A stretch of DNA of 32,072 bases from Cytobacillus oceanisediminis 2691 (GTDB taxonomy: Bacteria; Bacillota; Bacilli; Bacillales; Cytobacillaceae), in contig NZ_VEEP01000009.1 in assembly GCF_007678455.1 (NCBI RefSeq), positions 1 to 32,072 on the forward strand. Reading direction: 5' to 3'. Under the pieces are notes generated by a model that worked only from the letters and a program-made list of their open reading frames with translations, had not been told where the DNA came from and did no database searches. Shown here piece after piece: positions 10,391 to 24,559 of the stretch (its first letter is position 1; each line of letters begins with the position of its first letter). The position numbers and the translations under genes were made by a program.

Positions 10391-12088
10391 TTACATTTCC
10401 TCTGGAGCCTTGATTCCCAAAAGTCTCAGGCCTTCTTCGAGAACGATGCTGACTGCATTCACCAAAGCCAGCCGTGCATCTTTCTCCTCATTTTCTTTCA
10501 GGATCCTTACCTCTCCATAATATCTATTGAAAGCCTGGGCGAGATTCAATACATATTTTGCGATTTGAGATGGATCATTATTGTGGCAGGCTCTTATGAC
10601 AGTTTCAGGGAAATCCATAAGCTCTGTGACAACTGGCCATTCAGCCGCACCTTCAAGCTTGATTTCCACACCAGTTACTGGACTTGCTGCCTTTCTTAAA
10701 ATGGTTTTAGCCCGGGCATTTGTATATTGTACATATGGAGCTGATTCTCCTTCGACCCTCAACATTTCCTCCAAGGAAAAATCAATATCATTCATTCTAA
10801 AATTCTTCAGGTCATGAAAAATGATTGCTCCTGTACCCACCATAGCAGCTGTTTCTTGCTGATTCGGGAGTAAAGGATTTTTTTCCTCGATATTCTTTTT
10901 AGCCAGCTCAATCGAGTCTTTAAGGACATCCTCCAGTAAAACAACTTTCCCTTTGCGCGTTGACATTTTCTTGCCATCTTTCAGCATCATTCCAAAAGGA
11001 ACATGGATGATTCCATCCGCCCATTCAAAATCCATTTTTGCAAGAACCGCTTTTAACTGTTTAAAATGAAGACTTTGCTCATTTCCCACAACGTATAAAG
11101 ATGTAATAAAAGAATGCTGATCATATCGATACTTGGCCGCGGCCAAATCCCGGGTCGCATACAATGTGGCACCGTCTGATTTTTTAATCAGGCAGGGTGG
11201 CAGGCCGATATCTTCCAATTGAACGACCAGAGCCCCATCTGATTCGTCAAGAAGCTCTTTGTTCCTTAGCATTTCAACAATAGGCTCCATTTTATCATTA
11301 TAGAATGCTTCTCCAGCATATGAATCAAATTCAATCCCCAGCAGCTCATAAACCTTCTTGAACTCTTTCAATGATTCTTCCTTGAACCATTTCCACAATC
11401 CGAGTGCCTCTACATCTCCGTTTTCAAGACGCCTGAACCAATTTCGGCCTTCCTGCTCGAGTTCAGGATTGGTTTCTGCGGCTTCATGAAACTTTATATA
11501 AAGGGCCAGAAGCTCCTTTATCGGACTCTCTTTCACTTTCTGTTCACTGCCCCAAAGCTTATAGGCCGTAATTAGTTTGCCAAACTGAGTCCCCCAGTCT
11601 CCAAGATGGTTTATTTTAAACGTCTTGAATCCACATTTTTCATAAATTAGTGAAAGAGAATTTCCTATAACGGTAGAACGTAGATGCCCCATAGAAAAAG
11701 GTTTGGCAATATTAGGGGAGGAAAGATCAATTGTCACCGTATGTTGACGTCCTCGATTATAGTCCCCGTAATGGTTTTTCTTTTCTGTAATTTCATTGAG
11801 GATATAAGCTGCTGCTTTTGATTTATCCAAAAAAGCATTCACATACCCGCCAATTGCTTCAAAACGATCAAAGTCAGATTCATTTTTGGACTGTAATTTT
11901 TGGCTAATGTCTTTGGCAATTTCCACAGGTGACTTTCTCAGGGCTTTTGCCATCTGGAAGCAAGGAAAGGCCAAATCTCCGTGTTTCAGAAATTTTGGTT
12001 TTTCGATCAAACGGTCAATATTCTCATCAGATAGTATTCCTTTTAGTTCTTGAGCGAGTAATCCAGAATATTTTTTACGGTATTTCAT
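10391..12088 (-). CDS. argS: arginyl-tRNA synthetase
   Basis: The 565-residue class Ia synthetase charges tRNA-Arg. The HIGH-type motif appears as SMGHLRST after DLSSPNIAKPF, and the KMSKS-type region as GKKMSTRKGKVVLLEDVL. The N-terminal additional domain (GDLAFPCFQMAKALRKSP) and the DALR anticodon-binding domain at the C terminus (VQYTNARAKTILRK, ending LRLLGIKAPEEM) are present. The frame runs on 35 codons upstream, but AAAGGGAGG before the ATG at 12088 and homology set the start. The upstream frame is part of an arginine T-box leader that controls this gene. The protein resembles the second ArgS type of Bacillaceae rather than the standard 556-residue B. subtilis enzyme, but this needs a tree. 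Confidence 0.96.
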   Translation of the reverse strand: MKYRKKYSGLLAQELKGILSDENIDRLIEKPKFLKHGDLAFPCFQMAKALRKSPVEIAKDISQKLQSKNESDFDRFEAIGGYVNAFLDKSKAAAYILNEITEKKNHYGDYNRGRQHTVTIDLSSPNIAKPFSMGHLRSTVIGNSLSLIYEKCGFKTFKINHLGDWGTQFGKLITAYKLWGSEQKVKESPIKELLALYIKFHEAAETNPELEQEGRNWFRRLENGDVEALGLWKWFKEESLKEFKKVYELLGIEFDSYAGEAFYNDKMEPIVEMLRNKELLDESDGALVVQLEDIGLPPCLIKKSDGATLYATRDLAAAKYRYDQHSFITSLYVVGNEQSLHFKQLKAVLAKMDFEWADGIIHVPFGMMLKDGKKMSTRKGKVVLLEDVLKDSIELAKKNIEEKNPLLPNQQETAAMVGTGAIIFHDLKNFRMNDIDFSLEEMLRVEGESAPYVQYTNARAKTILRKAASPVTGVEIKLEGAAEWPVVTELMDFPETVIRACHNNDPSQIAKYVLNLAQAFNRYYGEVRILKENEEKDARLALVNAVSIVLEEGLRLLGIKAPEEM

Positions 12089-12110
12089 TGTAGACCTCCC
12101 TTTAAAAAAT

Positions 12111-12350
12111 AAAAAACCCCCGCCTCTAAAAAGAGACGAGAGTTTTATCCCGCGGTACCACTCTAATTGTTCCTGAAAGGAACCTGCTTTCATTGATAAC
12201 GGAGTTCATTCCGGCCATCCCTAATGGTTTTCAGGAAGGCATCTCAAAAGTGCGCTTCATTACCCTATTTGCACCAGGCTTTCACCGTCCCCGGCTCGCT
12301 AACTCAAAAAAGGATAACTACTCTCTTTCTCATCGATTAGATATTTTTAC
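12111..12350 (-). promoter_or_regulatory. T-box riboswitch with arginine specifier
   Basis: On the minus strand the leader has an AGAGAGTAG (AGTA-type) motif, the stem I pattern AGCGAGCCGGGGACGGTGAA, and the T-box core AGAGTGGTACCGCGGG (plus 12149-12164). A 10-bp terminator (12117-12126 with 12133-12142) ends in T6. The codon before ACTTTTGAG in the specifier loop is CGC (plus 12252-12254), an arginine codon. Uncharged tRNA-Arg pairing with this codon and the T-box bulge would favour the antiterminator and turn on argS. Confidence 0.93.
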
Positions 12351-20394: not shown

Positions 20395-20428
20395 AAAAAG
20401 TGACCCCTCTTTAAGAAGAATCACTTTT
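20395..20428 (-). terminator. Rho-independent terminator
   Basis: AAAAGTGA (20396-20403) pairs with TCACTTTT (20421-20428) around a 17-nt loop. On the minus strand the stem runs into CTTTTTTAATTTTT. The stop codon of the methyltransferase gene lies in the stem. Confidence 0.6.
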
Positions 20429-21035
20429 GTTCAATTTGCATTTTTTTGATGATAACCTGAATAACATGACCGGTGCCTGTGTGCAATTCACCTTCCACTC
20501 TTTCCTGTTCTCCATAAAAGAAATGAAGTACTTTGTAGCCTTTAATCCATTCTAAAACATCAGATGGATCGTAAAGCATCTCAACCGTCTTAGGTCCGCC
20601 TGTTCCGTATTTGACCTGGTCTTCTGAATATACCTCGAACATGATGGTGCCCCCCGGCTTGACAGTTGAAATCAATTTATCCATCACGGTTTTTTGATCA
20701 TCTTTACTAAAATGACCAAATACCATAAAGGCTGCATCGAATTCTTCAGCAGGTACCCCATCATGTATTAAATTCTTTAGTTCCGTTGAGATTTTCACTT
20801 TATGCCGCTCCGCCAATGCATTCGTCTTATTCAAACCATTTTCTGCATAATCATAAGCCGTAACTATATGCCCCTGCAGTGCAAGATAAACCGCATTCCG
20901 GCCTTCTCCTTCAGCAAACGCCACGATTTTACTTCCTTTTCCTAATCTGTGTGCTTGTTCTTTTATGAATTGATTTGGTTCTTCACCATATACATACTGT
21001 TCGGTACCAAAACGTTCATGCCACGAATTTCCCAT
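20421..21035 (-). CDS. class I SAM-dependent methyltransferase (TehB-like)
   Basis: The 204-residue protein starts MGNSWHERFGTEQYVYGEEPNQFI, the usual opening of small TehB-like methyltransferases. It has motif I IVAFAEGEGRNAVYLALQG, motif II VTAYDYAENGL and later VKPGGTIMFEVYSEDQ. The EGEGRNA variant is characteristic of this group. Members act on tellurite, selenite or unknown small nucleophiles. It is divergent from the thioredoxin-like selenoprotein gene with a shared 112-nt promoter region, which makes a link to selenium chemistry tempting, but nothing in the sequence proves it. Confidence 0.83.
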   Translation of the reverse strand: MGNSWHERFGTEQYVYGEEPNQFIKEQAHRLGKGSKIVAFAEGEGRNAVYLALQGHIVTAYDYAENGLNKTNALAERHKVKISTELKNLIHDGVPAEEFDAAFMVFGHFSKDDQKTVMDKLISTVKPGGTIMFEVYSEDQVKYGTGGPKTVEMLYDPSDVLEWIKGYKVLHFFYGEQERVEGELHTGTGHVIQVIIKKMQIEQK

Positions 21036-21147
21036 ACGATCACTCCTTCCTAATCATTATACCCATTACCCTTTTTTTAGTATGATAAAAGTTCAGGTGG
21101 CTATTCTATTTTTAAGTGGGTATCAGTAACGAAAGGAGCTGAATTAA

Positions 21148-21477
21148 ATGAAAGAATTAACATCAATTGATGAAGTAAAAAGTTTAATCAATGATAACGA
21201 ATTAAGTTTTATTTATGTCTTGACCGATGGTTGAAGTGTCTGTCACGGATTGCTTCCTCAGGTCGAGGAAGTTTTGAAAGATTTCCCTAAAATCGAGACT
21301 GGGCTGGTCAATGCCGGGAAGGTCGAAGAAATAGCGGGATTCCTTATGGCGTTTACAGTACCCGTTTTAGTCTTGTATGCAGATGGACGAGAGTATTTAA
21401 GAGAGGCAAGAATCGTCCAGGTTGAGAAACTCAGGGAAGACGTCTCCAGGATTTATGAAGGATTCTTTGGAGAATAA
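21148..21477 (+). CDS. thioredoxin-like selenoprotein with U-x-x-C active site
   Basis: ATG 21148 follows AAAGGAG. The frame meets UGA at 21232-21234 and continues open to TAA at 21475, giving 109 residues with selenocysteine at 29. The active-site region reads TDG-U-SVCHGLLPQVEEVL, that is U-x-x-C with Cys 32. Cys-containing homologues of this small thioredoxin family in Bacillus read CSVCHGLLPQ at the same place. FTVPVLVLYADGREYLREAR supplies the cis-Pro strand. A 7-bp SECIS-like hairpin starts 19 nt after the UGA. A conventional reading would give a 28-residue stub followed by an orphan frame starting at 21250. The role is probably thiol-disulfide reduction. Confidence 0.92.
21252..21272 (+). 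promoter_or_regulatory. SECIS-like hairpin of the thioredoxin-like selenoprotein mRNA
   Basis: CTTCCTC (21253-21259) pairs perfectly with GAGGAAG (21265-21271), extended by one G-U pair. The loop AGGUC lies at +26 to +30 after the UGA and closely resembles the AGGUCU loop of the E. coli fdhF SECIS. Confidence 0.85.
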
Positions 21478-21484
21478 TTGGGGG

Positions 21485-21516
21485 GCTTGGTTAATCCAAG
21501 CTCTCGTTTTTCTTTT
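21485..21516 (+). terminator. Rho-independent terminator of the selenoprotein gene
   Basis: GCTTGG (21485-21490) pairs with CCAAGC (21496-21501), extended by G-U pairs, followed by a T-rich stretch. It is 8 nt behind the thioredoxin-like stop. Confidence 0.75.
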
Positions 21517-21521
21517 ATATT

Positions 21522-21793
21522 GGCTCTGTTAAACAAGACTGTTGATTTTCGTTCCAGGCGCTTCGCTTTCCGCTGGAAGAATATTAAAAAACCAACTGCC
21601 GTCTTTTTCATAAGCAATTCTTCCTTGGGGCTGGCGCTGAGCCTCCTCGTCGCTTTGCTCCTGTGGGGTGCAAATGATTCCTCACGTGAATCATTTCACC
21701 TAGGTCTCACCTGTCCAGCTGCGCCCGCATGAGTCTTCGCGCCTTCCCCTACAATCAACAGGTGTAAAAACAACATTGAGCTTTAACAGAGCC
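21522..21793. mobile_element. 272-bp MITE-like element with terminal inverted repeats
   Basis: GGCTCTGTTAAA (21522-21533) and TTTAACAGAGCC (21782-21793) are perfect 12-bp terminal inverted repeats, directly flanked by the 7-bp repeat TTATATT on both sides (21515-21521 and 21794-21800). The inside is GC-richer than its surroundings and has no transposase. Its core (CGCTTCGCTTTCCGC, GGTCTCACCTGTCC, GTCTTCGCGCCTTCC) resembles a dispersed repeat common in Bacillaceae genomes. The open frame across it is not a gene. Confidence 0.8.
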
Positions 21794-21800
21794 TTATATT

Positions 21801-22672: not shown

Positions 22673-24559
22673 TTAACTTTTTCTCCAAACCCTTTTGTTC
22701 TCGATCCTTCTCGTGTATCCAAGTGCATCGAGACGTTCAAGGAATGGAATCATATACTTACGTGATAACTCCACTGCTTCTTTTGCCTGTGAGACTTCAA
22801 ATTCATCTCCCGTTTGCTCTTTCAGCTTACTCACTGCATCAGCAAAATGTTCTCCATACCAGGCGTATTGGTCATCCAGCATAACAATAACTTCCTGGTC
22901 TTCGAGGAAGCGTTTTAGTTCAAAGGAGATAGAGTCAGGTATGCCTGCATTTTTAATATAGTCATGCAAATAAGCAACCTTTAAGCCGTCTTTCTTAAGC
23001 TCGTTGATCAGATTCTCTGTCCGTTTTTCCCAGTTTTTCGGGACATGCGGAACAAATGCTGCAAGCGAGATATATTGTTCTTTTCTCATGAATAACCCCT
23101 TGCTGATTCCATTTTCGATTATGAATTCCAGCAACGTTTTAGAAAAAGATTTTTGCAGTGTTTGCAACAATTCAGCTTTATTCATGCCAGGACGCATTGG
23201 GCTTTCCTCGTGATAATCTTCCAATCGATCCATGATATCTTCTTCGATAAGGTCAATGATTGATGTCAGGGCATATTCTTTATTTGATACTTTGACAAAC
23301 TGGTCATCTTTTAGATTGGATAAAATAGATCCCTCATCAAGCGCTGTCCGCTTAATCAGCTCTTCGACCGTCAGGCTTTTTGCTTCATATAAGGCAGCGT
23401 TCATTCTTTCAATCGGTGTTCCAGCTTTCTTTTTTTCCAACTCCTCAATTGTCTGCTGTCCAAATCGATACTTGTTTCCACGTGGGTCGATTACCCAACC
23501 GCCACCAATTGTCTCCTGCGGACTTGGCCTGCGAACAATGAACCGGTCTCCTCGTTTAGTGACGATTTTTTCATCAAGGCGCAGCTGGCAAAGAATCTCC
23601 CCATTCTCTTCTTTTAGTTCGTTTCTGTCAAAAAAGACAATTCGTCCCATTACTTCGGCCGTACCGATATGGCACTTTATTGGCGTCCTTTGTTTTACCA
23701 GGTGGTCAAGGTCCTCAACGACTCTGATTGCGACGTCAATTGTATTGGTAACGATAAAATGCTCAGAAGAAACCAGCACCTCACCCCGTTCAAGCTCGTC
23801 CCTCGATACCCCTGAAAGATTAATGGCAGCCCGCTGACCCGCGAACGCTTTTTTGGCAGGCTGATGATGTACCTGAAGCTGTCGTGCCCTTACTTCATGC
23901 CCTGATGGCAAGACTTTTAATTGCTGCCCTTCTTCAACCGTCCCCTCGTAAACAGTGCCTCTGACAACGGTGCCCTGGCCTTTTACCGAAAATACCTGGT
24001 CGATGGGCAGACGGAAAGCTCCCTTTACATCACGCATTTCCTGTTCTTTCAGCGTACCAATAATCAGTTCTTTCAGTTCGATGATTCCTTTTTTAGATAG
24101 GCTATCGACCATCATAAAAGGTGCATTTTCAAAAACGGTCCCTTTAAGCTCGCCAAGAATGTCGTCTTTCACAAGTTCGATGAAATCCTCTTCCACCCTG
24201 TCAATCTTTGTGATTGCAATAATTCCTGAACGAATCCCCAGAAATCCAAGAATGTCCAGATGCTCACGAGTTTGCGGCATGACCCCTTCATCGGCAGCGA
24301 CAACAAGAACGACAAGATCAATCCCAGCTACACCGGCGATCATCTGGCGGATAAAGCGCTCATGTCCCGGTACGTCCACCACCGAAATTTGCAGTTCTTC
24401 ATCTTCATATAGTGGCGCAAAGCCCAGTTCAATCGAAATTTGCCGTTCTTTTTCTTCTTTCAGGCGGTCAGTGTCCACATTTGTCAACGCCTTGGTCAAC
24501 GACGTTTTCCCGTGATCAATATGACCTGCCATCCCGATGGTAAAATACCTCTTGCTCAA
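22673..24559 (-). CDS. selB: SelB, selenocysteine-specific elongation factor
   Basis: The 628-residue translational GTPase delivers Sec-tRNA(Sec) to UGA codons marked by a SECIS hairpin. The GTPase motifs are GHIDHGKT (12-19), DVPGHE (62-67) and TKID (117-120). DTDRLKEEKERQISIELGFA is the SelB-type switch I, distinct from EF-Tu. Beta-barrel domains II-III follow, and from about residue 380 the C-terminal winged-helix repeats that bind SECIS RNA. The length is normal for SelB (about 614-640). The start is TTG 24559 behind AGAAGGTG. It stands alone, not with selA or selD. Two genes in this window carry in-frame UGA codons, so its substrate mRNAs are close by. Confidence 0.97.
   Translation of the reverse strand: MSKRYFTIGMAGHIDHGKTSLTKALTNVDTDRLKEEKERQISIELGFAPLYEDEELQISVVDVPGHERFIRQMIAGVAGIDLVVLVVAADEGVMPQTREHLDILGFLGIRSGIIAITKIDRVEEDFIELVKDDILGELKGTVFENAPFMMVDSLSKKGIIELKELIIGTLKEQEMRDVKGAFRLPIDQVFSVKGQGTVVRGTVYEGTVEEGQQLKVLPSGHEVRARQLQVHHQPAKKAFAGQRAAINLSGVSRDELERGEVLVSSEHFIVTNTIDVAIRVVEDLDHLVKQRTPIKCHIGTAEVMGRIVFFDRNELKEENGEILCQLRLDEKIVTKRGDRFIVRRPSPQETIGGGWVIDPRGNKYRFGQQTIEELEKKKAGTPIERMNAALYEAKSLTVEELIKRTALDEGSILSNLKDDQFVKVSNKEYALTSIIDLIEEDIMDRLEDYHEESPMRPGMNKAELLQTLQKSFSKTLLEFIIENGISKGLFMRKEQYISLAAFVPHVPKNWEKRTENLINELKKDGLKVAYLHDYIKNAGIPDSISFELKRFLEDQEVIVMLDDQYAWYGEHFADAVSKLKEQTGDEFEVSQAKEAVELSRKYMIPFLERLDALGYTRRIENKRVWRKS

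Follow-up and report, generated by a model that had tools for sequence, protein, structure and literature searches.

Does the UGA codon that interrupts a short thioredoxin-like reading frame of Cytobacillus oceanisediminis 2691 end translation, or is it decoded as an amino acid? The frame lies in a 32,072-nucleotide stretch of DNA from this bacterium (the window), and an original prediction, made from the letters of the window, assigned selenocysteine (Sec) to the UGA at residue 29. This assignment is supported by Cys homologues, by a hairpin downstream of the UGA and by the Sec machinery of the host genome. We conclude that the gene very probably encodes a small thioredoxin-fold selenoprotein with Sec at UGA codon 29. 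The features on which the analysis relies are collected in Table 1.

Table 1. Features of the probable selenoprotein locus and of related genes in the host genome (positions in the window unless another contig is given)
Feature	Position	Strand	Remarks
Selenoprotein gene, thioredoxin-like (very probable)	21148..21477	+	109 codons plus TAA, single in-frame UGA
UGA, very probably read as Sec, residue 29	21232..21234	+	attacking position of U-x-x-C; Cys codon in stop-free homologues
Cys32, putative resolving residue of U-S-V-C	21241..21243	+	Cys in 58/59 UGA forms, Gly in L116
SECIS-type hairpin GCUUCCUC-AGGUC-GAGGAAGU	21252..21272, loop 21260-21264	+	within coding sequence
Pro72	21361..21363	+	same residue in all 26 aligned proteins; corresponds in place to the thioredoxin cis-proline
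Ribosome-binding site AAAGGAG	21132..21138	+	9 nt 5' of the ATG
Terminator-like hairpin and T-run	21481..21505	+	shuffles average 0.8 such sites; weak alone
Class I SAM methyltransferase	20421..21035	-	head-to-head neighbour of the selenoprotein gene
selB, Sec-specific elongation factor	22673..24559	-	TIGR00475, 362 bits vs cut-off 242.25
Formate dehydrogenase-type gene L127	G000:C477:80417-82438		in-frame UGA, CNRT-U-HAPS
Formate dehydrogenase-type gene L131	G000:C466:139616-140368		in-frame UGA, HQARI-U-HSST

Results

A reading frame with one in-frame UGA

Direct reading of the DNA agrees with the claim that a single frame is broken solely by the UGA: the TGA at 21232-21234 is the only interruption between the ATG at 21148 and the TAA at 21475-21477. 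Translation through it yields a product of 109 residues that contains U29-S-V-C32-H. The ribosome-binding site that had been placed before the ATG is present, and by eye, purine-rich stretches resembling AAAGGAG precede many homologues. The terminator claimed to follow the TAA stands less firmly. A hairpin with a T-run does occur there, but such sites arise in shuffled sequences at an average of 0.8, and the element is weak evidence by itself. No sigma-70-type promoter was matched in 21000-21600, where shuffles average 1.2 matches. The mechanical list of open reading frames of at least 60 residues shows just a 75-residue remnant from TTG 21250, which is the truncated call that had been foreseen. 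A gene caller that treats the UGA as a stop would thus cut the selenoprotein gene short. The host genome contains a single match to the read-through protein.

The two halves of the gene change in the same manner. When the window was compared with 55 other UGA forms, the differences by codon position amounted to 442/198/866 upstream of the UGA and 875/467/2304 downstream. Most differences thus hit third codon positions on either side of the UGA, which indicates that both halves have evolved under coding constraint in a single shared frame. The codon counts exclude one locus that is identical to the window's gene (L016), and the codon and tree counts also exclude two forms with an extra TAA (L035 and L038), both of which are included in the motif counts given below. 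Of 57 UGA forms, 18 also have UGA as the true stop at the end of this gene, which shows that UGA decoding depends on context and rules out a general reassignment of the codon.

Distribution of UGA forms and their Cys homologues

At an E-value of 0.001, the protein matches 87 of the 193 genomes of the host's family, and 50 of these matches contain an in-frame UGA; many family genomes are without the gene altogether. All 21 genomes searched from the host genus carry the UGA form, which is also found in a second genome of the host species (G075). At least four further UGA forms occur among the matches listed for a sample of 397 genomes of the order, and at least six among those listed for a sample of 398 genomes of the class. 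The total among the matches listed is 60 UGA forms, window included, and they span five families by our labels (f1, f2, f33, f36 and f49). Three genomes of the class sample (G866, G873 and G616) contain a second match that lies outside these counts.

The UGA occupies one residue in all of these forms. Its position is identical in the 49 alignable family forms and in all ten forms of the order and class samples, and the fiftieth family form (L077), which ends at a contig edge, contains the same UGA and hairpin in its start sequence. The original prediction had expected Cys at residue 29 in homologues, and a Cys codon was indeed found at the UGA place in all 31 stop-free relatives that were read (TGC in 20, TGT in 11). 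One distant relative (L082) is not counted among the Cys forms, and L118 and L119 duplicate L093 and L094. The prediction had also considered that related strains might replace the UGA by random codons and show decay downstream; instead, the UGA and the frame are kept. An extra TAA is present in L035 and L038, two of the 60 UGA forms. The proteins were aligned in one set of 26 (A1), and the UGA rows in a set of 24 of the 46 distinct rows (A2), to which a third alignment (A3) adds nine of the ten rows from outside the family (L135 is omitted).

Ten named loci with the protein include Mesobacillus selenatarsenatis, M. subterraneus and M. boroniphilus, several entries titled 'Bacillus sp. ISL' and one titled 'Chryseobacterium sp. 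ISL-80' (L045). The last has a gene that is 94% identical at the protein level and neighbours that match the Mesobacillus region, and its record title is therefore probably wrong.

A SECIS-type hairpin downstream of the UGA

The hairpin, which the original prediction did not mention, lies 3' of the UGA and has the general form GCUUCCUC-AGGUY-GAGGAAGU. In the 59 UGA forms that could be compared (L077 is excluded because it is cut by the contig end), CAGGT begins 24 bases past the UGA without exception. The five loop bases are AGGTT in 44, AGGTC in seven, AGGTG in seven and AGGTA in one. In a bacterial selenoprotein gene, one looks for a SECIS-type hairpin close behind the UGA whose apical loop holds a conserved G; here, the loop position reads AGGTN in 59 of 59. 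The core motif CCTCAGGTNGAGG is present in 56 of the 59 UGA forms versus none of the 31 Cys forms, and the longer motif CTTCCTCAGGTNGAGG in 51 of 59 versus none of 31. Among the exceptions to the core motif, L036 and L038 each contain one unpairing change, and in L138 both partners of one pair differ (G-C in place of U-A), which also alters an amino acid.

Across the 46 distinct UGA rows, silent heterogeneity is 0.20 in the six hairpin codon columns versus 0.55 in 40 other conserved columns, so that silent variation in the hairpin codons is about one-third of that elsewhere. The hairpin codons are near-fixed (CAG in 46/46, GAG in 46/46 and CCT in 45/46), whereas most other conserved codons vary. 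Three Cys forms read the same amino acids, LPQVEE (L071, L109 and L122), with codons that differ from those of the hairpin. CAGGT alone is found at the equivalent place in five of the 31 Cys forms (L071, L093, L099, L101 and L108) because it encodes Gln-Val.

Covariation support for the hairpin is weak. The window hairpin alone folds no better than shuffled sequences (z -0.68), and the consensus fold retains four pairs only. Across 33 sequences, a single pair shows two-sided change, and 61 of 500 shuffles did as well. When the partner is shifted by +1, two pairs change on both sides, versus one in the actual structure. Because the stem hardly varies, these pair-shuffle tests are low in power.

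At the gathering level, Rfam gives a T-box at 12129-12342 as its sole match in the window. This T-box leader, on the minus strand, lies 5' of a long open reading frame (10391-12193) and overlaps its start; judged by eye, the frame encodes an arginyl-tRNA synthetase.

Sec machinery in the host genome

A genome without selA, selD and tRNA-Sec would have argued against the original prediction; all three were found, in addition to selB, which the original prediction had not noted and which lies inside the window 1.2 kb downstream of the gene. The selA (568 bits) and selD (397 bits) genes are adjacent on contig 22, and the host selD carries its own in-frame UGA. Two tRNA-Sec genes with the anticodon UCA were identified on contig 332 by the Rfam model and by ARAGORN. 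The ARAGORN call matters here because the Rfam model also exceeds its cut-off in five of 14 control genomes. The two copies (L139, 2997-3093 and 13578-13674) are 10.6 kb apart and identical at 96 of 97 bases, and a comparison of their flanks found no similarity. In the lower-scoring copy, A replaces G at base 2; on visual inspection, this substitution seems to disrupt an acceptor pair.

Two formate dehydrogenase-type genes of the host also contain an in-frame UGA; L127 scores over the family cut-off, and L131 is partial and scores under it. A hairpin with a GGU tip follows the UGAs of selD (L011), L127 and L131. The loop is GGUCU in L127 and L131, whereas the fold predicted for the selD hairpin places the first G of GGU in a pair. 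These genes resemble the thioredoxin-like gene in that an in-frame UGA is followed by a GGU-tip hairpin, but they belong to other protein families, and their hairpins have other stems and a different spacing to the UGA. Judging from these sequences, UGA is most likely decoded as Sec in other genes of the host too, through the same kind of signal. Counting the two formate dehydrogenase-type genes with their hairpins, the host probably encodes at least four selenoproteins.

Co-occurrence of the UGA form with selA

The selA gene was detected in 59 of 60 genomes with a UGA form versus 30 of 115 others (Fisher p 8.7e-23, uncorrected for kinship). The comparison took 62 of 175 matching order genomes and 56 of 164 matching class genomes, mostly the best-ranked, and included every UGA form among the matches listed for the order and class; the 115 others (7 + 58 + 50) were mostly classed by the absence of a UGA inside the match. 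Among genomes with the UGA form, selA is present in 50/50 of the family (best E 1.7e-116 or better), 4/4 of the order sample and 5/6 of the class sample; among the others, it exceeds the cut-off in 4/7, 25/58 and 1/50, respectively. The contrast is small inside the family because nearly all of its genomes have selA, which is over the cut-off in 172 of 193, the UGA form being found in 50. Of four selA-lacking family genomes looked at, three (G040, G041 and G064) contain Cys forms, and one (G167) contains a distant relative only.

The exceptional UGA-form genome, G616, consists of one contig that is listed as 100% complete. It retains an intact UGA form (L136) with the hairpin, but a search of it for selA gave no match, and one for selB gave nothing above the cut-off. 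The most economical account is that the Sec machinery was lost recently, and G616 may illustrate how a gene of this sort comes to its end.

Fold and family placement

The AlphaFold2 model, calculated with Cys for Sec, has a pLDDT of 94.5 and a thioredoxin fold, and the best 50 Foldseek hits are mostly thioredoxins or designs on that fold. In the model, residue 29 directly precedes helix 30-43, and Pro72 directly precedes strand 73-78. The predicted structure thus combines a match to the thioredoxin fold, a redox motif at a helix start and a Pro residue before the next strand. Pro72 presumably plays the role of the thioredoxin cis-Pro. Residues V31, C32, H33, P37 and P72 are among those invariant in the 26-protein alignment, in which L116 is not included.

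The description of the protein as thioredoxin-like is borne out by the modelled fold, and its family scores fall under the cut-offs: 19.8 bits for PF00085 (gathering score 23.5), 21.7 for TIGR01068 (cut-off 96.8) and 25.0 for NF047697 (cut-off 140). These scores argue for a thioredoxin-like protein that is not TrxA. The models of SaoT (NF040730) and of the HUIPC-motif proteins (NF047660) are absent from the matches at E 0.001, and no model of this subfamily was found above a cut-off in NCBIfam. The nearest solved chain by sequence is chain A of 4euy, an 'uncharacterized protein' with C-G-V-C at this site (E-value 1.8e-13; 1.1e-27 by profile).

Phylogeny of the Sec and Cys forms

In a tree built from 86 proteins, of which 55 are Sec and 31 Cys forms, a single branch (support 98/96) sets all Sec forms apart; the tree is unrooted and built on few columns, with many unresolved forks, a bootstrap that had not fully settled and several Sec rows, including L115 and L116, on long branches. 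The same Sec/Cys split appears (SH-aLRT 95) in a quickly built tree from which the residues of the hairpin and Sec were left out. One gain of Sec, or one old split, would be enough to explain the tree. Repeated independent origins of Sec were rejected, given that the tree needs one change, also when the hairpin and Sec residues are removed.

Discussion

How would the UGA be decoded, and what would Sec do in this protein? SelB bound to the AGGUN loop would bring Sec-tRNA to the UGA, and the ribosome would insert Sec at this codon with no stop. At the N-terminal end of the long helix, and with Pro72 as its partner in the manner of thioredoxins, Sec29 would act as the nucleophile on a substrate that may be a disulfide, a sulfenic or persulfide species or a selenium compound. 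Cys32 would then resolve the selenenyl-sulfide, and the enzyme would be recycled by a cellular thiol or thioredoxin reductase. We infer this redox mechanism by analogy with the thioredoxin family.

One UGA form departs from this arrangement at the resolving residue. L116 (in G501) reads U-S-V-G-R; other residues stand in place of the resolving Cys and of the His next to it, and the protein would accordingly have to work with Sec alone.

Could the UGA nevertheless be an ordinary stop, created by a sequencing error or by decay of the gene, so that the product is a 28-residue peptide or the 75-residue remnant? The standard list of open reading frames, which holds the remnant alone, and the extra TAA in two of the 60 UGA forms are what such a stop would lead one to expect. 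However, the same UGA recurs in 60 assemblies, including the second genome of the host species, change is of the coding type on both of its sides, and the hairpin core motif is confined to UGA forms. An ordinary stop is thus extremely improbable, and a pseudogene or sequencing error was rejected on conservation. Hardly more credible is read-through with an amino acid other than Sec, by a near-cognate Trp or Cys tRNA or a suppressor, that would serve regulation. This type of decoding would accommodate G616, in which the UGA form persists although selA and selB were not found, but a recent loss of the sel genes is a simpler account of that genome. The other 59 of the 60 UGA-form genomes contain selA. 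Moreover, the host has the full Sec machinery, the homologues place Cys at exactly residue 29, and the hairpin is of the kind found after the UGAs of selD and of the two formate dehydrogenase-type genes.

A different objection concerns the hairpin and leaves open that the UGA encodes Sec through a signal located elsewhere: the hairpin sequence might be conserved solely by amino acid constraint on LPQVEE and might not be a SECIS element. The hairpin sits in a conserved stretch of the protein, its pair counts are not clearly better than those of shuffled sequences, and a few codons outside it, such as those of Asn55 and Asp79, are nearly as fixed. Protein constraint does not readily account for near-fixed hairpin codons while most other conserved codons vary, for the other codons used by the three LPQVEE-reading Cys forms or for the change on both sides of one pair in L138. 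We consider constraint by the protein alone very unlikely, if slightly less so than the two readings without Sec. Sec insertion at the UGA, directed by the hairpin, is the reading that we prefer.

Sec thioredoxins are already known as a kind, and this protein adds a member. Compared with its Cys relatives from the same order and class, which probably include B. licheniformis YdfQ, it belongs to one family whose Cys members have C-S-V-C or C-G-V-C at the active site. Unlike the UGA forms, these relatives have Cys for Sec and lack the hairpin core (0/31), and they often reside in genomes without selA. The Sec forms and Cys relatives, with and without the hairpin core, form a ready-made contrast in which to ask what a thioredoxin-like enzyme gains from selenium.

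In the accessible text of a survey of 2006, Sec thioredoxins (Trx, PF00085, UxxC) are listed, for example, in Treponema denticola and Geobacter sulfurreducens, and three selenoprotein families are counted in Bacillales (PMC1794560). The present protein shares with the Sec thioredoxins of PF00085 the thioredoxin fold, a UxxC motif with Sec first and Sec read at UGA. It differs from them in its sub-threshold PF00085 score, in its U-S-V-C-H motif and in its occurrence, here, in Bacillus relatives, to which it adds a well-supported selenoprotein. SaoT and the HUIPC-motif proteins are likewise thioredoxin-like UxxC selenoproteins, but their models do not match the host protein. A review of 2026 covers 119 selenoprotein families and subfamilies, and its table includes Trx (PF00085, UxxC), SaoT and the HUIPC-motif proteins (PMC13188914). 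In the accessible portion of this review, no entry is described as the present subfamily, although the generic Trx row could cover it. The subfamily is not named in the accessible portions of PMC9312934, PMC12013277, PMC5029168 and PMC1794560, and a search of the titles and abstracts of openly licensed papers yielded no recognised report of it. An accessible part of PMC9918477 describes B. licheniformis YdfQ as a hypothetical thioredoxin in a sulfur-oxidation cluster.

A possible partner is encoded next to the gene. Relatives of the neighbouring methyltransferase stand beside 41 of the 50 family UGA forms (flank lengths differ, and kinship is uncorrected) and, tail-to-tail, beside three of the ten UGA forms from outside the family (L133, L135 and L136); none was found beside the 27 Cys or distant loci examined likewise (8 + 19). 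The arrangement is head-to-head in f1 and tail-to-tail in f49. The best NCBIfam match of the methyltransferase is MduS, at 53.6 bits versus a cut-off of 380, and TehB models match weakly. These matches hint at selenium or tellurium methylation and provide a lead to chalcogen chemistry. It is conceivable, although we judge it rather unlikely as a whole, that the UGA forms are an unnamed selenoprotein family of their own, with a single origin among the Cys thioredoxin-like proteins of Bacillus relatives and a near-unchanged SECIS core, and that this family acts with the linked SAM methyltransferase on reduced sulfur, selenium or tellurium compounds, one protein reducing and the other methylating them.

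A putative MITE-like element with the terminal inverted repeats GGCTCTGTTAAA / TTTAACAGAGCC is located just 3' of the gene, at about 21522-21794. Among the loci examined, this element is confined to the host's species.
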